A DNA stretch of 64,000 bases, from NCBI GenBank assembly GCA_022678445.1, contig JALBWU010000006.1, positions 124,001-188,000 of the forward strand. Reading direction: 5' to 3'. The notes under the pieces were generated by a model. The model was not told the origin of the DNA, ran no database searches, and was given only the letters and a program-made list of their open reading frames with translations. Shown piece after piece: positions 1,362 to 64,000 of the stretch. How positions within the stretch are numbered: the stretch's first letter is position 1; every line of letters starts with the position of its first letter. Position numbers and translations under genes: made by a program. The DNA is from Candidatus Aramenus sp. CH1. GTDB taxonomy: Archaea > Thermoproteota > Thermoprotei_A > Sulfolobales > Sulfolobaceae.

Positions 1362-1562
1362 GAAGATGTACTTTTAATCCACAAGGGGGTTCTTCGGGTA
1401 AATAACGGTTTGAACAGCGTCTCTTTCACCGTATTTCACTCCCGTGGAGGGTCCTGCTTGAGACTAATAATAGTATGAGAGACCTTCATAAAATCCTTTG
1501 AGGTTGAAGTTGAGGCTCAAAGGGCCTTTGAGGTGGGCGGGGAATACGTCGTCGTTGCTTAA
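1362..1562 (+). pseudogene. Probable C-terminal remnant of cas5 (type I-A)
   Basis: An open frame of 67 codons, interrupted by one TGA at 1476-1478, runs directly into the start of cas3'. Its C-terminus FEVEVEAQRAFEVGGEYVVV resembles, from memory, the conserved end of archaeal Cas5a, and cas5 normally sits immediately before cas3' in type I-A interference cassettes. Cas5a is usually about 240 residues, so most of the gene is absent, as are csa5 and cas7, which should lie further upstream. Position and C-terminal similarity support the call; a profile search is needed to confirm it. Confidence 0.45.
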
Positions 1563-1575
1563 ATATTACCATGAG

Positions 1576-3036
1576 GTGATCAAGGCGTTAAACTATGAGC
1601 CTAGAAAGGGCATAGAGGATACTCTCCGCTGGCTAGAGCAAGGCGAAAACGTAGTTCTTACCGCTCCAACTGGTTACGGGAAGACTACACTAACCAAAGT
1701 GCTAGGAAAGGCAGCATCTAAGGGCAACAACCTCTTCGACAAAGTTATTCACGTCCTCCCGTATAGAGCAATTGTCCAAGACTTGTACTTAAGGCTTCTT
1801 GCCGAGAAAGAAAAGCTAGAAATTGAGAGCGTTGGAGCTCAAGACATGGACTACCACGACGCTCCCTATTACCTAAAGAAAGTGAATATAACAACCTTGG
1901 ACTCCTTTGTGCTGAACTTATTTAAAGTTCCAGTTGACGAGTTCGCCAAAGTAATAAAGGGAAACGGCTCCCACTTTGAAGTCCCTAGAGGGATGATCTA
2001 TTCCTCATTGATAATATTTGACGAGTTTCACCTCTTTGCTGAGGAAGGAAAGGCAATTACATCAACTTTGGCTTCAATTGACGCTCTAATAGATGGGGGA
2101 GTTCCCTTGTTGGTTATGACCGCAACGTTGCCAAAGTGTTTGGCTAAGGAGCTTAAGCAGAGGGGATTTAATTTCGCTGAAGCTAACGACTTCAACGTTA
2201 AGAGGGAAATTAAAGTGGAGTGTGTTGACGATCCGTACTCTGCACTGGAAAAGGGAGTAAAAAAGACCTTGATGGTCTTTAACACTAGGGAGGAGGCAAT
2301 TAAGGCTTACCAAAAGGTTAAGAAAATGGGCTTTAACCCCTTGCTAATACACAGCAAGTTCAACTCAGCTGACAGAAAGAAGAAGGTGGAGGAAATACTA
2401 AAGGTGAGCAGAGGGGAGAGCAATTACGACGTTGTTATAGCCACCCAAGTTATTGAGGCTGGAATCGACGTTTCATTTGACCTTTTGATTACTGAAGCTT
2501 GCCCAGCAGATTCCCTAATTCAAAGGGCAGGAAGGGTTGCTAGATATGGAGGAAAGGGAACTGTGAAAATTTTTCCGTTTAGGGGAAAGGTTTACGACTC
2601 GCAAGAGGTAAAAGCGACGATGAGTAAATTAATGAAGACTAAAAGGATTGACTCCTCCCTCCTTGACGTTCTGAAGAGAGGGGTTAACGTTGATAAGCCC
2701 CTCCAAAAATCCTTAGAGGCAATTGAATCAATCCTATTTGGCCCAGAAGCAACTAAAAGCTTATTTAAAGTGGAGTGCTCCCTAACTAGGGAAGTATCCT
2801 TAATCCCGGGCTATCCTCCGGGCTGCAATGATCCAAGCTGCGCAGTTCCCCTAACTGAGGAGGAGGCACGCAAATTGCTACCGGGAAAGGTTATTACTTA
2901 CGACGGGCAGGAAATTGAGTATTCAACCAGCAAGAAGGAATGCCTACAAGTTTCATTCCTGATAAACGGAATAGAGGGAGTTAGGATTCCCGGTTACGAT
3001 GAAGAAATAGGGGCAATTTTGGTGAGGGAAAAATGA
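1576..3036 (+). CDS. cas3': CRISPR-associated helicase Cas3' (type I-A)
   Basis: DExH-type superfamily 2 helicase, the stand-alone helicase half of Cas3, which unwinds target DNA for degradation after Cascade binding. Visible motifs in order: Walker A APTGYGKTT, motif II FDEFH, motif III MTATLP, motif V QVIEAGIDVSF and motif VI QRAGRVARYG. An upstream TTG at 1498 is also in frame, but I chose the GTG at 1576 because it follows the cas5 remnant stop at 1562. From the GTG the product is about 486 aa, normal for the split archaeal Cas3'. The gene overlaps cas3'' by 4 bases (ATGA), as in intact type I-A operons. This gene itself looks undamaged. Confidence 0.93.
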   Translation: MIKALNYEPRKGIEDTLRWLEQGENVVLTAPTGYGKTTLTKVLGKAASKGNNLFDKVIHVLPYRAIVQDLYLRLLAEKEKLEIESVGAQDMDYHDAPYYLKKVNITTLDSFVLNLFKVPVDEFAKVIKGNGSHFEVPRGMIYSSLIIFDEFHLFAEEGKAITSTLASIDALIDGGVPLLVMTATLPKCLAKELKQRGFNFAEANDFNVKREIKVECVDDPYSALEKGVKKTLMVFNTREEAIKAYQKVKKMGFNPLLIHSKFNSADRKKKVEEILKVSRGESNYDVVIATQVIEAGIDVSFDLLITEACPADSLIQRAGRVARYGGKGTVKIFPFRGKVYDSQEVKATMSKLMKTKRIDSSLLDVLKRGVNVDKPLQKSLEAIESILFGPEATKSLFKVECSLTREVSLIPGYPPGCNDPSCAVPLTEEEARKLLPGKVITYDGQEIEYSTSKKECLQVSFLINGIEGVRIPGYDEEIGAILVREK

Positions 3037-3758
3037 AACCCTGTGCCTTTGACAAACAAGAGCTATTGAGCCACGCTTTGGGGAGCGTAAAAATGATGGA
3101 GGAAATGTTTGACGGTAATTACTTTGAGGTAGTTAGCAAAAGGCTAAATAAAGCAGTTAGAGGGCTAAACGTAACAAAAGAAGACGTGAAAAACCTCGTT
3201 ACGTTCTTAACTGCCTTCCACGACTTAGGAAAGGCTGCAGAGATTTACCAAGAGCAGTTTGACAATAACTGTAACGCCTTGAGGAAAAACACCTCCTTCA
3301 CGTTTCACGAACTGGGTGGAGCACTCTTCTTATGGCGCAATGAGTGGGAAAATCAATCCCTCAAGGTTATGTCAACTCTCACCGTGTTAAACCACCTAAA
3401 CGCAATAAGGAACTTCAACACCACTAGGCACGAAATGTATAAGGTGAAGGACGGTCACCTAAAGCTGCAAAAATACGGTAAAGAGCTAGTGAACGAGCTG
3501 TTAAGTAATAAAGTAAGGAACCCCTTCATGAAAACCTATAAAGTAGAGGATTACACGCCCGCGGATCTTCAAGATATGTTTAATGAACTTGCCTCATACG
3601 CTACGTCTAGCCTAAAAATAAAGCTCTACGTCCTCTTCTTAACTCCAGTCATAATTGGAGACAACCTAGACAGCACAACCTCAAGGGAGAAAGACAAATC
3701 CTATAGCTCAAAGAGCCACTTCATTTCCTCTTTACTTGAGGAAGTGGAAACGCCTTGA
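3033..3758 (+). CDS. cas3'': CRISPR-associated HD nuclease Cas3'' (type I-A)
   Basis: 241 aa HD-domain nuclease, the DNA-cutting half of split Cas3; it degrades target DNA with the Cas3' helicase. The hallmark FHDLGKAAEIY is near residue 65, an N-terminal His (LLSHALGSV) near residue 14 provides another ligand, and a further His (TFHELGGA) lies near residue 93. Length is typical. The start overlaps the cas3' stop and the stop overlaps the csa4 start (TTGA), so the three genes form one tightly coupled operon. No lesion is visible. Confidence 0.9.
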   Translation: MKPCAFDKQELLSHALGSVKMMEEMFDGNYFEVVSKRLNKAVRGLNVTKEDVKNLVTFLTAFHDLGKAAEIYQEQFDNNCNALRKNTSFTFHELGGALFLWRNEWENQSLKVMSTLTVLNHLNAIRNFNTTRHEMYKVKDGHLKLQKYGKELVNELLSNKVRNPFMKTYKVEDYTPADLQDMFNELASYATSSLKIKLYVLFLTPVIIGDNLDSTTSREKDKSYSSKSHFISSLLEEVETP

Positions 3759-4791
3759 CAGTCAAAATACCTTTGTACAGCATCTTTGGAGACAACTTTA
3801 TCATAGCCCTAGCCTCTTTAGCTAAAGAGGCAAAGAGAGACCGGGACTCTGTGGAGTTTGATGATAAGTCACTTGAGGATGCCTTGCTTACTGCCTCCCA
3901 ACTTTCCAAAGATAAGGAAAATAACCAACAAGAAAAGAATCCGAGCTTGACTTCCCTAAAAGCGGAAACGACAAGGACTCCTTCAATGAGGTATTAAAGT
4001 GCTTCAACATTCCAGAAGGAGCTTCTGTTTCCGATATCTTAAGCAAGTTCGCTGCGTCAATTCATCAATTTCCCTCTTGCAACGATGTTACTGCGCCTTC
4101 AATGCTAAAGCCGGAATATTACGAATACGTCAGAACTCCAGGCTTTTACAGAAGAATAAAGGCCTCAATCAAGGCCCAGGTATCCCCGGCTTACGTTTTG
4201 GCTAGTTTAGCTGGTTGGGTTTTAACAAGGCTAGGAAGGGCTCCAGTGGGAAAGGGGGAGTACGTTGGGGTTTACGCCTTTCCACTTGACGTTGACGAGA
4301 AATTTGTAATGATTCCGTTACTCTTAAAGGAACTTAGTACAAAAGACGTGCCAGGCACTGAGCCGTCAACTGCCTTAGCAATTTGGTTGGCTTCCGAGAT
4401 GCTTAAGTCCCAGGCTGTAATTGACCAACTCATGATTTACACCATCGCAGAGCCGACTGGAAAAAACCCAGCCACGGTGACAAACGGGCAGTTGATTAGC
4501 GTTGGAAGGTTACTAAAAAGCGAAAAGTTTAAGAAAATCCACGAGGAGGCTGGAGCAATTGCTGAAATAGCTTTGAGCCCAAATCCTTGGGAGTGCGACA
4601 AAAACAACTTCAGCGTGAAATTTTCAAACCTACTATTTGAGGTACTCTCTGGGAGCAAGAGGGAGGTTGAACTTGCCTATTTGGCAAATAGGGAGTACTA
4701 CGCTTGCAAGAAGAGCCAAAGCGAATGCAAGAAGTGCGTAAGTTATTACTTGAAAGCGGTCCAAGTGGCAAACCTCATCTCGGGGCTGTGA
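3755..4791 (+). pseudogene. csa4: Type I-A Cascade large subunit Csa4/Cas8a2, frameshifted
   Basis: Starts with TTG at 3755, overlapping the cas3'' stop, and ends at 4791: 345 codons, the usual size of Csa4 (Cas8a2), the subunit that helps recognise the PAM in archaeal Cascade. The first 60 or so codons (KIPLYSIFGDNFIIALASLA) are in one frame. From about 3940 the coding sequence continues in another frame, through DSFNEVLKCF, the long helical middle (SPAYVLASLAGWVLTRLG) and a Cys cluster CKKSQSECKKC near the end. Loss of a single base near 3940 explains the shift. Family assignment rests on position after cas3'' and overall pattern. It may be a true inactivating mutation or an assembly indel. 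Confidence 0.75.
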
Positions 4792-5202: not shown

Positions 5203-6080
5203 TCATTCAATCGGGTTTTCTTTTTTTAACTTTATCTCCGCTGTCCACCTTACCCCAAAGCCAATTCCCCTAGACCTTCCAACTCCCATGAACTCAGCCA
5301 AGCCAAGAAGCCTTTCCATAACGTTCCTATACCTTTTGTTAAGAAAGAAGTCGTACTTAACCCAGCCCACAAATCCCCTTGCCTTTCTTAAGTTTCCGTG
5401 ATTATCTTTCCCAACTATGGCGGTTACTGGCTTTATTGAATACCCTACCTCAGCAAATATAACGTCAGCCATCCTTCCCACAATATAGGCAGTCCAATTT
5501 TGATCTCCAATGACAATTAAATCCTTTGGTTCAGCTATTGAGTTCCACAACTTAGTTAGGGATGCGAAAATCAAAGAAGGAGAGGGAAGCAGGCGGTACA
5601 TGTTCTTTATCTTCTCTTTGTGCTTAAAGCTCGGAGGAAGCATTGTCTTGTTTGAGAGAAGCGTTGGGGTTTCAAACTTTAAAAAAGACCGCGCTGAAGG
5701 GGGGGAACCTCAACTCGCTTTGCTCAATCTTTATTTCCTCAAGCCTTAAGCTAAACTCGCCGTAAGGGGTTGAAGCTTGGTTGGGAATTTGAAGGATAGC
5801 TCTGGGTCCAAATCCTTGACTGCGAGTGAGAAAGAATAGCGCGCTCGCCCTTTTCTAGTCTAAGGGGAGAGGCGTTTCCTTCGGTGGAAAACAAGTACTT
5901 GTCGTTGACCTTGAGGGAGGAAATTGAGATTTCCTTGTACTTCTTTCTGGACTTTAGGAGCTCTCCTACCTTGGGCAAACCCTCGAGAATGTACTTTGGG
6001 ACCTTTGAAGTGAGAGGAGGGAGAATTACGTCTGCAGTGGGGTAAAGGAGAAAGGTCGCCTTTACAAGTTTTGTTGACAT
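5203..6080 (-). pseudogene. cas6: CRISPR RNA endonuclease Cas6, frameshifted
   Basis: Cas6 cuts the precursor CRISPR RNA within each repeat. The N-terminal part begins at the ATG at 6080 (MSTKLVKATFLLYPTADVIL). Near 5845 one base is gained or lost, and the frame continues as TRSQGFGPRAILQIPNQAST, then SFKHKEKIKNMYRLLPSPSL, and ends with RSRGIGFGVRWTAEI, the glycine-rich C-terminal loop characteristic of Cas6. Total about 292 codons, the normal length. It is transcribed in the same direction as the adjacent array, whose last repeat is 67 bases from the start. Only one lesion is visible, so an assembly indel is as likely as real inactivation. Confidence 0.8.
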
Positions 6081-6147
6081 TAAGAAAAATTTAGTTAAGA
6101 AGTATAAAACCTTGATCTTCAAGAATTGGCAGTGAGTACTGGGTTAT

Positions 6148-6371
6148 CTTTCAACTCTATTGAAGATCAACTGGGGTATGATGTTTCCCACGATCACAGC
6201 GAGACTATTTTTGTTTACTTTCAACTCTATTGAAGATCAACGGGAGGATTTTTTGAATACCCCCGACATCGAGGGGAAGTTACTTTCAACTCTATTGAAG
6301 ATCAACAACGAGGAGTGCATAATATTGTTCAAAGCACACGATGTAAGCTTTCAACTCTATTGAAGATCAAC
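6148..6371 (-). CRISPR. Four-repeat CRISPR array, 24-nt type I-A repeat
   Basis: Four identical 24-nt repeats at 6148-6171, 6218-6241, 6283-6306 and 6348-6371, each starting CTTTCAACTC and ending GAAGATCAAC on the + strand. The three spacers are 46, 41 and 41 nt. The reverse complement ends in GTTGAAAG, matching the 8-nt 5' handle class of Sulfolobales crRNAs, so the array should be read leftward, toward cas6, with its leader expected to the right of 6371. There is no clear AT-rich leader there; a coding-like remnant abuts the last repeat. Such a short array suggests an inactive or recently collapsed locus. Confidence 0.95.
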
Positions 6372-6875: not shown

Positions 6876-7600
6876 TTAACCTACGCTAACCTCGCCCTGA
6901 GCTTTGCTGACCAGGCTGCTGGAGTTTTCTTGCGTTTTAACGCCTTCACCTCCCTGTAGTTGCCTCAACTTCAGCAAAATGTTGCCCAGTTGAGTGAGCG
7001 AAGCTCCTCTATCTTTTCCCTTGACCACTACTAGTCCAGCCTTTTTCAGCTCGTTTAGCCTACCACAGTTTTCTCGCTCTTTCCAAGTTCCTCTGCCAAC
7101 TCGCTTAACGTTGCCTCTCCTTTTTTACCTATTGCGTGTAAAAGCTTTAGGTCCTCCACTGTGTAATCCCTGAGGAGGGAGTACACTTCATCTCCTTTAA
7201 CCACGATGTCGTGCCCTTCCCCAGACTCGCTCATGAGGTAGGCAAGGAACGGTTTTCTACTAAGTAGAACGGCGATAAGTATGAGGACGTCCATGGATCT
7301 GAGTCCAACGCTTAAATTTGCGTAAATTAATCCCTTTGACGAAAGGACTACGTCTAAAACCTGGGACAGGGTTGACGGAAAGTCTCCCAATTCAACTTCT
7401 TCCACTCTGGGATCAGGGTAACGCATCCTGGAACAAGATGCCCTTAAACTGTCTATCGCTTCTGCAACCCCGCCTACTACTGGTCTTGGAACTATGATGA
7501 CGAGCTCGTTGTTCCTAGTTGCGTTAGTCCTGGAGAGAAGCCTTAGGACGAAGCTCTCGTTAAATCCCATGGTGCTTAAGTAGGTTTTAGTTTCGGTCAT
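6876..7600 (-). pseudogene. csa3: CARF-HTH regulator Csa3, frameshifted
   Basis: Csa3 is the CARF-domain regulator that controls adaptation genes and arrays in type I-A systems. The N-terminal CARF part (TYLSTMGFNESFVLRLLSR, then LIYANLSVGLRSMDVLI) is intact from the ATG at 7600. The winged helix begins GKKGEATLSELAEELGKSEK; at about 7060 one base is missing and the frame continues as GRLNELKKAGLVVVKGKD to a stop at 6876-6878. The combined length of about 242 codons is normal. The start overlaps the stop of the upstream RHH gene (ATGA), an unusual coupling. The adaptation genes it normally accompanies (csa1, cas1, cas2, cas4) are not in this window. Confidence 0.8.
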
Positions 7601-7818
7601 CTCTGTAATACTCGCAAGCAAAAATAAAACTTCATGAATGATATTAACTTAGGCGATATGCCTAAATCCTTTATTATCATATTAATAGCTGACAGGGCAT
7701 CGAGCTCTAGTATTGACTGTTCGAATATTTTGCTTAATGTGGTATTTCTCTCAATAGCTATTTCCTTAGCCCTCTTTAAGATCTCTTTATCTATTGATAA
7801 CGTAACCTTAACCTTCAT
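7597..7818 (-). CDS. Ribbon-helix-helix DNA-binding protein (VapB-like)
   Basis: 73 aa from the ATG at 7818; the longer frame upstream is unlikely because this ATG sits at the edge of a palindromic promoter. It begins KVKVTLSIDKEILKRAKEIA, a classic ribbon-helix-helix start (beta strand, then two helices), as in VapB antitoxins. The hydrophobic tail FYFCLRVLQR could be a partner-binding segment. No toxin follows; instead the stop overlaps the csa3 start by 4 bases. A perfect 18-bp palindrome spans its start codon, consistent with autoregulation. It may be an antitoxin whose toxin was lost, or a regulator recruited to the csa3 operon. Confidence 0.75.
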   Translation of the reverse strand: MKVKVTLSIDKEILKRAKEIAIERNTTLSKIFEQSILELDALSAINMIIKDLGISPKLISFMKFYFCLRVLQR

Positions 7819-9317: not shown

Positions 9318-10127
9318 TTATTCTACTATCATGGATGTTATTATTGTTACTCCTTCTTTTTCTAATTCTTCTTTAATTTTTTTGTCGACGTAGTTTGCTA
9401 TTAGAAATATTTTTATGGGTTTGTTGAATAGTTGTGGAATTAGTTTCTTTCTTATGAGTATTTGTTCTAGAGCTCCTTCATCTGCGAAGTTCTTGACTTC
9501 AAATACGTAAATGTAATCGTCAGTTTCGTAAAAGTCTATTTCAAATATTCTACCCTTTTGTATAATACCATAAGTGTCAACAATACTACCATGCTTAACA
9601 TTAGCTGGATTTATACCGTGTAATTCTAAAGCCTCCTTATAAACCATCATAATGGTTCTCTCCAAACCCTTCCCAGCCCTACTAGTAAAACTACCAATCT
9701 CAGTAGCTAACTTAGCAATAAGCTGAGAATTCTCCTTAATTGCTTCACCTTGATTCTTAACCGCCTCTTGTAAAGCTTTGATCGCTTCCCCATGTTCCTT
9801 CAATATCTCGCCTTGTTGTTTGATCGCTTCCTGCAAGTTCTTTATCTCCTCACCCTGCTTCTTGATCGCTTCCCCATGTTCCTTCAATATCTCGCCTTGT
9901 TGTTTGATCGCTTCCTGCAAGTTCTTTATCTCCTCACCCAGTTGTTTATCGGTTTCTTGTAATGCTTTGATCGCTTCTTGTAAACTTTTTATTGCATTGG
10001 TGTTTTCTTCTAATTTTTTTATAATTACTTCGTCCTTGAGTTTGTCGTAGATTTTATTAGTTAATGTTGTGATGAATTTTTGGTCGTTTAGTAGTCTTTC
10101 AATCATTTCGTCAATTTGACTTGCCAT
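9318..10127 (-). CDS. Coiled-coil PD-(D/E)XK nuclease-like protein (DUF3782 type)
   Basis: 269 aa. Residues 1-45 are a helical head. Residues 45-140 are a coiled coil built from near-identical repeats (IKNLQEAIKQQGEILKEHGE). The C-terminal domain contains FEIDFYETDD, then YVFEVKNF, which fits the D...ExK core of the PD-(D/E)XK nuclease superfamily. Such proteins occur in many copies in Sulfolobales; substrate and role are unknown. The repeat count probably varies between copies. It lies just downstream of a MITE, and a long T-rich stretch follows its 3' end. Confidence 0.75.
   Translation of the reverse strand: MASQIDEMIERLLNDQKFITTLTNKIYDKLKDEVIIKKLEENTNAIKSLQEAIKALQETDKQLGEEIKNLQEAIKQQGEILKEHGEAIKKQGEEIKNLQEAIKQQGEILKEHGEAIKALQEAVKNQGEAIKENSQLIAKLATEIGSFTSRAGKGLERTIMMVYKEALELHGINPANVKHGSIVDTYGIIQKGRIFEIDFYETDDYIYVFEVKNFADEGALEQILIRKKLIPQLFNKPIKIFLIANYVDKKIKEELEKEGVTIITSMIVE
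9780..9940. repeat. 84-bp tandem repeat encoding coiled-coil segments
   Basis: Two head-to-tail units of period 84 bp (28 codons) begin with GATCGCTTCCCCATG at 9780 and 9864. They are identical for about 76 bases and diverge at the end. The period is a multiple of 3 and of the heptad repeat (28 = 4 x 7), so each duplication lengthens the coiled coil without breaking it. Confidence 0.85.
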
Positions 10128-56934: not shown

Positions 56935-58314
56935 ATGCAAGGGTCTTTAGTTAATCTTCTACTAGTGGTAGTAACAATCTTGATAGCCTTATCCGTATTT
57001 TCTTTGTTCGCCTTTTTCACTTCAATATATACAGGCGAGTTATTATCTCAAGAATACGTAATAGGCTTATCTAAATCAGTACAAGTTATCACTTCATTTC
57101 CCGCATTTACTTCATTTCCCGCATTTAAGAGTGGACATCCGGTAACCCTCACGTATAATGTGAGCTACTTACTGTGGATTAAAGCCCCGGTTAAGACAAT
57201 TACTGTTATACCTTTTAGTTCGCCAGCTCAAAGTAACCCCTTTTACTTAATGCCTGTTAACCCTCAGAACGCTTATTTGTATTCGTCAACACTTAAAGGC
57301 TATGAAAAAGTTAATGACTCTACGTTCAGTTTTAACGTTTACTTACCACAAGGGGGTAGGCTTTTAGGAGAGGTAAATAATGTCCATGCGTATAACGTTT
57401 CATCTAACTATACCTATATCCTATCAGCTTGCATAGAACCTGGTCAACTAATTTACTTATGGGTATTATATTACTATCAAGGTAAATGGTATAGGCTGGA
57501 TTATACTTACTTCAATCCTTTCAATAACGGTTTACCTGTTTACTTTCTAAGTAGTAGTGGAAAGTACGATAGTAACTCAGCAAATTTAGAAGGGGCGTCT
57601 GAGCCACACATCACGATGTCTAATACTGGCTACATGATGGGACTATGGTTTGAGCCTATTGCCTTAGCAACGAAGCCAAATATGTTGCTCAATGCTACGT
57701 TTATTCCGGTGGGGAGTGCCAACGGGAATAAACAATTTTCAATAGTACTGTATCAAGTAGGAAATTTGATAAACGCTACAGTGTATAGTAATAATCAATA
57801 CTATTCTTCTAAGATATTAAGCCAAGTTCAGCTTAACCAATGGTATTATATAAACTTCACATTTGGTTCTCAGTTAAAAAGTCAAGGTAGCGTGGTTTTT
57901 AACATGTATAGCTCAAATGGTATTTCAATAACCAACCCGAGTTCGCTAAGTCTCCCTCCTGGAACTAGAAACGGTTATGTTTTAATAGTCTCATTTGGGT
58001 CAAAGAGTTTGACAACAGATGCTATATCTCAAGCCTTCTTTGCTACCTTGAAGAATACCCTTGGAATTAACAATTTGTACAATGCGTCTAATATAATGTT
58101 AAATAATGGTTACATAACTCCCGATTACAACTACTATCATAGTTTGATGGAACAATCAGAGAACAAACTATACGCTTTAGGCTACTGGTATTTCGTTTCC
58201 TTGACTAATACTCCACCTTCCCAAGTTCCCGGGACATTATGGTATTATACTAGCAATAAACTATTATCAAACACCACAATACCTGAAACCGGTTACAATA
58301 CATATGTAGCATAA
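56935..58314 (+). CDS. Pilin-like protein with possible LamG-type lectin domain
   Basis: 459 aa. N-terminal helix VNLLLVVVTILIALSVFSLF after a very short leader. Residues 60-200 are beta-rich; residues 220-380 (ITMSNTGYMMGLWFEPIALA, FSIVLYQVGNLINATVYSNN, VQLNQWYYINFTFGSQLKS) have the strand pattern and the W-Y-x-I-x-F signature of concanavalin/LamG jelly rolls, which bind sugars. An 18-bp tandem duplication at 57091-57126 gives TSFPAF twice. Likely an adhesin displayed on or near the pilus. Confidence 0.6.
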   Translation: MQGSLVNLLLVVVTILIALSVFSLFAFFTSIYTGELLSQEYVIGLSKSVQVITSFPAFTSFPAFKSGHPVTLTYNVSYLLWIKAPVKTITVIPFSSPAQSNPFYLMPVNPQNAYLYSSTLKGYEKVNDSTFSFNVYLPQGGRLLGEVNNVHAYNVSSNYTYILSACIEPGQLIYLWVLYYYQGKWYRLDYTYFNPFNNGLPVYFLSSSGKYDSNSANLEGASEPHITMSNTGYMMGLWFEPIALATKPNMLLNATFIPVGSANGNKQFSIVLYQVGNLINATVYSNNQYYSSKILSQVQLNQWYYINFTFGSQLKSQGSVVFNMYSSNGISITNPSSLSLPPGTRNGYVLIVSFGSKSLTTDAISQAFFATLKNTLGINNLYNASNIMLNNGYITPDYNYYHSLMEQSENKLYALGYWYFVSLTNTPPSQVPGTLWYYTSNKLLSNTTIPETGYNTYVA

Positions 58315-60832: not shown

Positions 60833-61235
60833 ATGCTAGTGGTTTATGAGTTTCCTCAACTTTTTGAGGACACGGTGAAGGAGAGATTAATTAGGTTTAT
60901 AGCGATTACAACGTCTGGAAGAGTGCGTCATCTTCACGACACAGGTAGACTAGGGGAATTCATTTATCCTGGAAATAAAATTCTCTTAAGAAATATTTCA
61001 GGAAAAAAAGAAGACCAGTTGTCAAGTTACTGCTGCGTGGAATAATACTTGGGTGATTGTCGATTCAAGCATACATAATATAATTGCTCAGAAAATATTG
61101 GGAGAAGCTAATAGGGAAGTTAAAGTAGAAAATAGTAGGTTAGATTTTCGAAAAGGTAATACCTTTATTGAGGTTAATTGTTTACCCAGAACTGATCTGG
61201 GGAATAAGTTTTGGAACTTACCTAATAGCTTCTAA
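60833..61235 (+). pseudogene. sfsA: SfsA-family protein, frameshifted and truncated
   Basis: First frame: FEDTVKERLIRFIAITTSGR, HLHDTGRLGEFIYPGNKILL, to 61045. After a shift near 61030 the second frame gives WVIVDSSIHNIIAQKILGEA, VKVENSRLDFRKGNTFIEVN, then an altered end. The family pattern of tumour-like OB strand, N-T-G-R/L-x-x-x-x-PG and S-R-x-D-F...E-V-K/N fits SfsA, a DNA-binding nuclease-like protein of unclear role. The C-terminal 80 residues are missing; the ATPase gene on the other strand ends here. Confidence 0.65.
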
Positions 61236-62358
61236 ACACTCTTCCTATTAGCTTCTCTGCTGGGCAATATTTTTCCTCATTTCTTACTATCCGCGACGCC
61301 TCTTCTAGTGATTTAAATAATTATATAACTCAGAATCACTTATTTCCCTACCTTCTGCGTACTCTATAGCCCTTTTTATCTCACTCCACCTACTACATTC
61401 ACTTGCAACTCTCCTCATTATTGTGTTATATATCTTTTCTTAGCTATCATTCTACTTTTCAAGAAGTTCTCAAATTCCTTTCTAATTAATTTTTCTGCAG
61501 TATGTAAAGTCAATTCTAAAGCCTTATCGTAGTCCCTGCTCTGATAATAATATCCGAAGTAAGTTTGCCAACCTGGTACTCCTCCCAATTCTTCATAAAT
61601 TTTATCATATTCATTAAAACTGATTCCAACTTCTTTAAATCCTCTCTCTAAAAATTCCTTGCTTTTCTCTCTATCAAAGGGATTTAATTCTACTCTATTC
61701 ATTGCCCTCCCATGCAAAGGAGAGTCTGGGTCGTCTATTTTTAAGTATCTATATAATAAGCCCATCTTTGAGCTTGTTAATATAATCTTGACTTTCCTCA
61801 AATTATCGAAAGAGTATGAGAAAGAGAATAGTAAATTTGTTCCCCTTAAGTTAATTAGTTCTTGAGCCTCGTCTAAAGCTACAATAACTTTATCATCAGC
61901 CCACTCGTCAAGTAATTCTAGTAATGAGGAAAATTTGACCCTATTACCTCTCCCCCAATGTAACTTTACTTCATTACCTAATATGCTAACACCCTCTATT
62001 CGTTTGAGGAAGTCTATTAGTGAGGGAAATTTTTTAGTTAAACTATTTATTTCTTTTTGAAGGTCAAGTATGAAATCCTTGAATGATATATAATTCATCT
62101 CTTCATATTTTCTCATATCTATATAGATATATGGAAACTGTGTTTCATTTATAGCGATTTTTATTACCGAAGACTTTCCAGTCCTTCAAGATGCCGGAAA
62201 AGAAGGGTTGGATAGCCTATCATTACCGAAGACTTTCCAGTCCTTCTGAGACCTAAGACTAGAGAGATCGGTGACGATAGAGGCTTGACCTTTTCTATCT
62301 CCATATCTCTATCAAAGAAATCTTTTCTGGAATTTTTAGGTGAAGGGTCGAAGATCAA
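61222..62358 (-). pseudogene. Archaeal ATPase (ATPase_2 family) disrupted by a 59-bp repeat-flanked insertion
   Basis: Start MIFDPSPKNSRKDFFDRDME at 62358; the P-loop LGLRRTGKSSV follows. Inside the P-loop codons 59 bp are added (62163-62221), shifting the frame. Removing them restores RRTGKSSVIKIAINETQFPY and the full downstream frame: VIVALDEAQELINLRGTNLL (Walker B), KIILTSSKMGLLYRYLKIDD, LGGVPGWQTYFGYYYQ. Two further one-base shifts near 61430 and 61320 lead through RVASECSRWSEIKRAIEYAE and SLEEASRIVRNEEKY to a stop at 61222. It differs in sequence from the other two ATPase copies. Confidence 0.8.
62163..62246. repeat. Exact 25-bp direct repeat bracketing a 34-bp insert
   Basis: Copy 1 at 62163-62187 and copy 2 at 62222-62246 are identical (start ATTACCGAAGAC, end CCAGTCCTTC) and encode the Walker A segment RTGKSSV on the minus strand. 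The 34 bp between them (62188-62221, starting AAGATGCCGGAAAAG) is not present elsewhere in the gene. Read on the minus strand the repeat contains GACT-GGAA-AGTC, a short hairpin with a GNRA loop. Confidence 0.9.
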
Positions 62359-62502
62359 TTCTACCCCTAGAAGTTAAATAGTTTTTCCGACTTGAAAACA
62401 TGCGGCTGAAAAATTATAGAAATATTAACAAAAATACTTATATATAATTATATTCTCAATTCTTTACTAACATTAAGCATATAATTTGATAGATTATAAC
62501 AA

Positions 62503-62612: not shown

Positions 62613-63107
62613 CTGGCCTCCTCCCAGCCCTGCGAGGGTTCTGCCTAGGTCTAAGGCGTTACTCCCCCTTAAGGGAAATACCCCGTGATGTGAAGAGAAA
62701 GGAAAGAGCCAAAGCGTTGACAATCTTCCTTTTTCACAATGTTTAACGCTCCGCTAACGTCGCTGTGAAGTTAACGACACCACTGGGATTTCTGTCAACC
62801 TTAACGTTATGGAAAGCGCAGAGCCGCGAAGTATTGTACTCAACAACTAGGTACGTCTTTACGCCGTACTCGTGGAGTTTGTTCACTGTAGCGCCATCTT
62901 GCGAAAAGACCAAATTTGAAGTGAGCTTGTTACCATCCTAGAAATGAAGTAAGGATAGCCCAAGTAAACTGTGGAGACGCCAAGATCCCATAAGGACTTA
63001 GCCAAGTGAGATGCTAAAGTTCTGTAAATGATGAAGCCTAGGTGAATCTTCGAGAAAAGCCTTTTCCTTTCCCTCAGTACTTCTTCCTTAGCGTTTAATT
63101 CATTAAC
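62613..63107 (-). mobile_element. IS605-type tnpB 3' fragment, left member of a tandem pair
   Basis: Right end at 62613 (GGGCTGGGAGGAGGCCAG on the minus strand), then TnpB C-terminal coding sequence with deletions: the zinc-ribbon region has lost its middle (about 62765), the frame shifts several times, and the N-terminal side ends near 63107 after LKGSNALDLVNELNAKEEVL. There it joins the next copy directly. Inactive. Confidence 0.8.
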
Positions 63108-64000
63108 CAGGTCTAAGGCGTTACTCCCCTTTAAGGGAGATACTCCGTGATGTGAAGAGAAAGGAAAGAGCCAAAGCGTTGACAATCTTCTTCACTCCTA
63201 GTTTCACAATGTTTAACGCTCCGCTAACGTCGCTGTGAAGTTTACGACACCACTGGGATTTCTGTCAACCTTAACGTTATGGTAAGCGCAGAGCCGCGAA
63301 GTATTGTACTCAACAACTAGGTACGTCTTTACGCCGTACTCGTGGAGTTTGTTCACTGTAGCGCCAACTTGCGATAAGACCAAATTTGAAGTGAGCTTGT
63401 TACCATCCTAGAAATGAAGTAAGGATAGCCCAAGTAAACTGTGGAGACACCAAAGACCACAAAGTCTTGGTGAGGTGAGATGCTAAAGTCCTGTAAATGA
63501 TGAAGCCTACGGTAAAGCTTAGTGACTCTTTCCCTTTCCCTCAACACCTCTTCCCTATCACTTCTTGGACCTTTTCTGTCTCGCTCTTCAACTTGTCAAG
63601 CTCAGCTATCTTTTTCTGAAAAGTAGAAGTTCGCTCTTAACTGCTGAACCACGGTAAAATAGAAGTACCGTCCTCAACCACGACAGTAGCCAACGCGTTT
63701 ACGCCAAGGTCAATTGACGCAACCTTTTCGCCTTTAGGCTTTTCAACTTCTCTCTTTCGCCGTGAATAACGATAGAGTTCTTCATTGGCTTACGCTTTTC
63801 TTTGCTACAGTCCTACCAACGTCAACGAAATGTGGGCGTAAAAATTGTTGCCCATCACGCGAATCTCCAGCCTACCTTGTGCGCCAAACCACCTTAACCT
63901 TCAAAGGGCATCTTCATTTTCCAATCCTTCAGAGAGATGACGCGTTTTTCTTCGTCAACTTCGTAGCGATCTTGCCTAACTACTAGGATCAACTTCTCCT
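63108..64000 (-). mobile_element. IS605-type tnpB fragment running off the window
   Basis: Begins at the 3' coding end (CAGGTCTAAGGCGTTACTCC on the + strand) without its own right-end hairpin, then repeats the same TnpB region: DVSGALNI-type end, a damaged zinc ribbon, LGYPYFISRMVTSSLQIW, RuvC VASIDLGVNALATVVVED and, toward 64000, the N-terminal RLRWFGAQGRLEIRVMGNNF and EVDEEKRVISLKDWKMKMPF. Several frameshifts. It closely resembles the lower part of the copy at 21670. The 5' end is outside the window. Confidence 0.8.

Follow-up and report, generated by a model that had tools for sequence, protein, structure and literature searches.

A 25-bp target duplication around a 34-bp foreign insert in an ATPase pseudogene of Candidatus Aramenus sp. 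CH1, a candidate scar of off-target CRISPR spacer integration

Off-target, 'neo-CRISPR' spacer integration by Cas1-Cas2 was described by Nivala, Shipman and Church in 2018 (Nat Microbiol 3:310), who reportedly found natural cases in Sulfolobus islandicus and Yersinia pestis; scars of this kind in natural chromosomes have seldom been documented. Their study is cited in PMC9456107 and PMC11788318. Integration outside arrays is known experimentally, as stated in the original prediction made for the locus described here, with SsoCas1-2 integrating all around plasmids in vitro (PMC5815122). The intrinsic motif of the S. solfataricus Cas1 is limited, with C at -2, a certain preference for A at -1 and, at +1, G in first and C in second place (PMC4574026; PMC5815122): SsoCas1 favours A at -1 together with G at +1 (PMC4574026), and the off-target sites of SsoCas1-2 in vitro show a preference for C at -2 and C/G at +1 (PMC5815122). 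In S. islandicus, Cas1 binds hairpins with a 7-bp stem and a 4-nt loop without sequence specificity, and the regulator Csa3a represses integration outside arrays (PMC9456107).

The locus that we compare with these systems lies in the genome of Candidatus Aramenus sp. CH1 (G000), near the end of the window, i.e., the whole stretch of 64,000 nucleotides of contig JALBWU010000006.1 that was analysed. It comprises the following features, given by window position:

61228..62374, minus strand: ATPase_2 (PF01637) pseudogene, with an insertion in the Walker A region
62163..62187, minus strand: first copy of the 25-bp target, in gene sense GAAGGACTGGAAAGTCTTCGGTAAT
62188..62221, no strand assigned: 34-bp foreign insert, putative misplaced spacer
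62222..62246, minus strand: second copy of the 25-bp target, with a hairpin in its first 19 gene-sense bases
62246..62249, minus strand: putative first integration site, in gene sense TCA|G (motif from PMC4574026 and PMC5815122)
62162|62163: putative second integration site at the gene-distal junction, where the 5' base on the plus strand is A and not the preferred G or C

The direct repeat (ATTACCGAAGACTTTCCAGTCCTTC) was found to be exact over its 25 bp, at 62163-62187 and 62222-62246, as originally claimed, with 59 bp from start to start, a gap of 34 bp and a length of 84 bp for the whole structure; the repeat-insert-repeat structure itself is confirmed. No third copy of the 25-mer is present in the window at up to three mismatches (dinucleotide-shuffle expectation 0.00). 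All 15 aligned homologous loci from Sulfolobaceae relatives (L002-L016) carry a single copy without the insert, including that of the nearest relative, G005, whose alignment reaches both junctions and is 87% identical in 289 bp to one side. The comparison with empty sites, which the original prediction had put forward as a check, therefore shows that the insert is not native to the gene and that the 59 bp are a derived gain in the CH1 lineage, made up of a 25-bp target duplication and 34 new bases. The original argument that a simple tandem duplication would be inadequate is borne out, since none of the empty sites and no other part of the genome contains the 34 bp; slippage or tandem duplication was accordingly rejected as a source of the insert bases.

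The duplicated segment corresponds to the Walker A region of the minus-strand ATPase_2 gene, and when the 59 bp are omitted the local frame reads GLRRTGKSSVIKIAINE. The predicted restoration of the frame thus holds locally, but the gene is not otherwise intact, its homology to full-length relatives being spread over three frames with further frameshifts near 61430 and 61310. For the same reason, the proposed inactivation of the ATPase by the insertion is only a part of the story: the gene has been hit in its Walker A region, yet it carries two other frameshifts. A palindrome (CTTCTAGGGGTAGAAG) is found at the start of the ATPase_2 gene (window 62350-62376) and at the same place in L002-L016; the relatives carry two tandem copies of it (TTACTTCTAGGGGTAGAAGTTACTTCTAGGGGTAGAAGT), which are kept in nearly all aligned loci. 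This palindrome could possibly be an autoregulatory operator or the end of an element. At window 62647-63509, two tandem copies, each of about 470 bp, of a fragment of a TnpB-like (transposon-associated) gene, 93% identical to each other, adjoin the ATPase pseudogene.

Within 0.51 Mb of the CH1 genome, exact repeats of comparable size are otherwise restricted to the CRISPR array and to longer repeats of likely coding origin, and 1.2 Mb from three relatives contained one comparable case, with a 20-bp repeat. The latter, at L092:19164-19248 in G005, is exact, has a gap of 45 bp, and lies at the start of a gene with a product beginning MEIKTSVLVIGGGA; it is the only other two-copy repeat of such shape in the 1.2 Mb from the relatives. 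The structure in CH1 is therefore unusual, a single event without a supporting second example.

With respect to the assembled genome, the insert is foreign. Allowing three mismatches, the 34-mer occurs once in CH1, as the insert itself, and was not found in 59 relatives, nor was its 30-mer core found at the same tolerance in 213 other genomes of the order. Matches of its halves (19 bases, three mismatches) in the CH1 genome did not exceed the reversed-pattern control, and an exact 22-mer of the insert was not found among GTDB species genomes. Being single-copy in its own genome and absent from the 213 others, the insert derives neither from slippage nor from a multicopy transposon, and it is neither copied from a neighbouring segment nor a known repeat according to the own-genome and half-insert searches. 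The hope of finding its origin among virus, plasmid and Sulfolobales genomes was disappointed, as these searches returned no source or protospacer: exact scans of IMG/VR and searches of phages and plasmids gave no protospacer, blastn against phages and plasmids gave weak matches only (E about 1 or above), and the viral scans gave isolated 17-20-mer matches (L022, L041, L146-L152), with a best full-length identity of 24/34. Two 20-mer matches from IMG/VR, L022 (24/34) and L041 (23/34), were rejected as chance: their identity stops abruptly, 17-mer seeds give equal full-length identities, so that they are no better than a seed plus chance, and both contigs carry bacterial-phage-type genes.

This uniqueness bears on two other explanations. 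An artefact of assembly or sequencing might be suspected in a region with several frameshifted genes; we regard it as very improbable, because the rest of the assembly offers nothing from which the 34 bp could have been drawn. Moreover, frame and flanks are otherwise homologous to the relatives, and nothing would make a short-read assembler create such a structure. The second explanation is a transposon remnant: an element would have inserted with a 25-bp duplication of its target and later been eroded down to 34 bp. It would find a precedent in the IS1202 family, a group of which makes target duplications of more than 15 bp (PMC10132070), and TnpB-like fragments (62647-63986) do adjoin the site. 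The members of that group in PMC10132070 are, however, bacterial or metagenomic, and archaea are unmentioned there. The 34 bp show no terminal inverted repeats and their halves have no multicopy match in the CH1 genome; among 31 genomes of the family, short-stringency matches of the halves did not exceed the control, save for a promoter palindrome (see below) that is not a transposon end. A remnant of this kind would require a Sulfolobales element that makes 25-bp duplications and has no detectable relatives. We know of no Sulfolobales insertion sequence with 25-bp duplications, and the literature on Sulfolobus target duplications yielded nothing informative. With neither body nor ends of an element found elsewhere in the CH1 genome, in the 213 genomes of the order or in the 31 of the family, we consider a transposon quite unlikely, in line with the original remark that transposons do not usually make 25-bp target duplications.

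The end of the insert nevertheless gives an indication of the kind of DNA it may come from. Its last 16 bases, GGTTGGATAGCCTATC, recur at nine places among 30 other genomes of the Sulfolobaceae if one mismatch is allowed, versus one for the reversed control. Of the sites examined, seven have the palindrome TGGATAGCCTATCCA, or a variant differing by one or two bases, between a TATA-like box and the ATG, around position 1500 of the following loci:

L138, L139, L140: TGGATAGCCTATCCA-type palindrome, NicO nickel transporter genes
L136, L141, L142: TGGATAGCCTATCCA-type palindrome, Peripla_BP_2 binding protein genes
L143: TGGATAGCCTATCCA-type palindrome, FecCD permease gene

Based on these positions, at nickel/metallophore-uptake promoters, the 15-bp palindrome appears to be an operator for nickel/cobalt/B12 uptake in several Sulfolobaceae; a literature search found no description of it. 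The final 13 bases of the insert (window 62209-62221) correspond to 13 of the 15 palindrome bases, the palindrome being cut at the junction. From this we infer that the insert would be a fragment captured from Sulfolobales-type promoter DNA, located in a mobile element or in another cell.

The site of the insertion resembles the places where Cas1 acts in two respects. The promoter-proximal junction of the target, GTCTCA|GAAGGA, agrees at every position from -3 to +1 with ATTCA|GTTGATC, where leader and repeat meet natively in this lineage; the leader ends in ATTCA|G in CH1 and in one leader of the genus mate G001, and in ATGCA|G in the other leader of G001. Of random 25-bp windows in the CH1 genome, 0.5-0.6% have TCA|G at one end or the other, and 11-19% have the looser motif C-N-|C/G; the junction match was examined post hoc, the Cas1 motif itself being taken from the literature. 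The second, gene-distal junction is without motif (A at +1, T at -2), and in vitro the second integration site is likewise less robust (PMC5815122). The published Sulfolobus Cas1 motif is matched at the TCA|G end only. Secondly, the small hairpin that had been noticed in the duplicated segment is real: GAAG-GAC/GTC-TTC forms seven pairs with one bulge and a 4-nt loop (DNA fold -3.0 kcal/mol, z -3.5), and 6% of random 25-mers fold equally well (RNA energies). By overall sequence, on the other hand, the target resembles the CRISPR repeat no more than random 25-mers do, and a likeness between the two was rejected. The 25-mer not being the CRISPR repeat, a functional CRISPR array at the ATPase site was rejected as well.

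Neither the TCA|G junction nor the hairpin is predicted by the explanation that remains the strongest rival, a repair accident in which the 25-nt overhangs of a staggered double-strand break were filled in while a short piece of foreign DNA was captured as filler. Such an accident yields the same geometry, and tandem duplications without filler do occur elsewhere in the genome (window 9778-9939 and 57091-57126; L052). Yet a source of the 34 bp in the CH1 genome was not found, and filler at breaks tends to be shorter or to be copied from within the genome concerned. A reliance on end joining is not known for Sulfolobales either. Altogether, we consider filler capture unlikely.

Integration by Cas1-Cas2 presupposes that these proteins were once available. 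The window contains a decayed type I-A CRISPR locus:

1498..4791, plus strand: cas3' helicase, cas3'' HD nuclease and csaX/cas8a (type I-A interference)
5203..6122, minus strand: cas6, split into two reading frames
6148..6371, minus strand: remnant CRISPR array of four 24-bp repeats (GTTGATCTTCAATAGAGTTGAAAG) with spacers of 46, 41 and 41 nt
7055..7621, minus strand: csa3 (CARF regulator), with a frameshift within, and cutting off, the DNA-binding domain

The csaX/cas8a gene matches only the later part of its profiles, and the array at 6148-6371 has no native leader attached; a full leader followed by a single repeat is found 27 kb away on the same contig (L023; L028:18787-18810). Profile searches of the genome, which is rated 99.98% complete, detected neither cas1 nor cas2; as these searches read through stops, a broken remnant of cas1 was rejected too. 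The genus mate G001, by contrast, has cas1 and two arrays of 64 and 48 repeats (L062, L063) with the same repeat as CH1. Adaptation was therefore very probably present in the ancestor and lost in the CH1 lineage; given the cas1 of G001 and the surviving leader with one repeat, Cas1-Cas2 was likely available in the ancestor.

The 110 spacers counted in G001 measure 36-47 nt and, together with the three of CH1, give 113 for the genus; the insert, with its 34 nt (35 if the duplication is taken as 24), is shorter than all of them, even if such a range is a size statistic and not a sharp rule. The original prediction that 34 bp would lie within the spacer range was thus off, the insert falling just below the local range (36-47 in G001; 41, 41 and 46 in CH1). 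Its equation of 25 bp with the Sulfolobales repeat length is right in that these repeats have 24-25 bp, but the repeat of the genus is 24 bp long, one base less than the duplication.

Taking these observations together, we consider that the 84-bp structure is probably the product of off-target spacer integration by the former type I-A Cas1-Cas2. For this reading, which was that of the original prediction, speak the 15 empty sites out of 15, the unique insert, the TCA|G junction with its fit to the published motif, the hairpin, the frameshifted csa3, the rarity of such structures and the presence of a large type I-A system in the genus; against it stand the lack of cas1 and cas2, of a protospacer and of a PAM, the length of the insert below the spacer range, a duplication of 25 instead of 24 bp, a second junction without the preferred base, a target that is not repeat-like and the fact that the case is a single one. 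The original interpretation is thereby supported in part. In such a scenario, an ancestral type I-A Cas1-Cas2 would have joined a fragment of 34-35 bp of Sulfolobales-type DNA to the leader-like TCA|G in the ATPase gene, the other end of the fragment would then have been joined 25 bp away on the opposite strand, and repair of the gaps would have doubled the 25-bp stretch separating the nicks, in the way in which the first repeat of a genuine array is doubled. A likeness of TCA|G and the hairpin to the native leader|repeat junction may account for the choice of the site. Afterwards, cas1 and cas2 would have been lost and the remaining CRISPR locus would have decayed. The derived insertion with its 25-bp duplication, the origin of the insert outside the assembled genome, the junction match, the hairpin and the decayed locus are observed; which enzyme acted, in what order the strands were joined and when this happened with respect to the loss of cas1 we infer.

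What sets the CH1 locus apart is that it occurs together with a frameshifted csa3 and a lost cas1. The csa3 of CH1 is a relative of the S. islandicus Csa3a, and its breakdown might have released the brake on Cas1-Cas2, which would then have placed spacers at hairpin-bearing TCA|G sites and damaged genes, perhaps favouring the loss of the adaptation genes, with the insert as a scar; we hold this extension to be distinctly doubtful. A genotoxic cost of CRISPR adaptation, as a possible reason for its loss, becomes testable by comparing genomes with intact and broken csa3.

Compared with known systems, the locus shares a long target duplication with the insertion sequences of the IS1202 group, but the latter measure about 1.5 kb and possess inverted repeats and a transposase, nothing of which is seen at the CH1 site. 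With the native type I-A arrays (L062 and L063 of G001; 6148-6371 of CH1) it has in common the order repeat-spacer-repeat and the TCA|G or CA|G junction, whereas these arrays have a 24-bp repeat of fixed sequence and spacers of 36-47 nt. The hairpin of the duplicated segment is similar in size to the stem-loops bound by the S. islandicus Cas1. The in vitro reactions of SsoCas1-Cas2 (PMC5815122) share with it a junction that has C at -2 and G at +1, and they too take place at many sites outside arrays; they are half-site assays, whereas the insertion in CH1 is finished, two-ended and chromosomal. Off-target integration is an already described phenomenon, of which the CH1 locus, so read, is a further instance: it differs from neo-CRISPR integration in that cas1 and cas2 have been lost, the insert is short and the likeness of the site is limited to TCA|G and a hairpin, and it shares with it a short foreign insert, a duplication of repeat length and a chromosomal site that resembles the leader|repeat junction.
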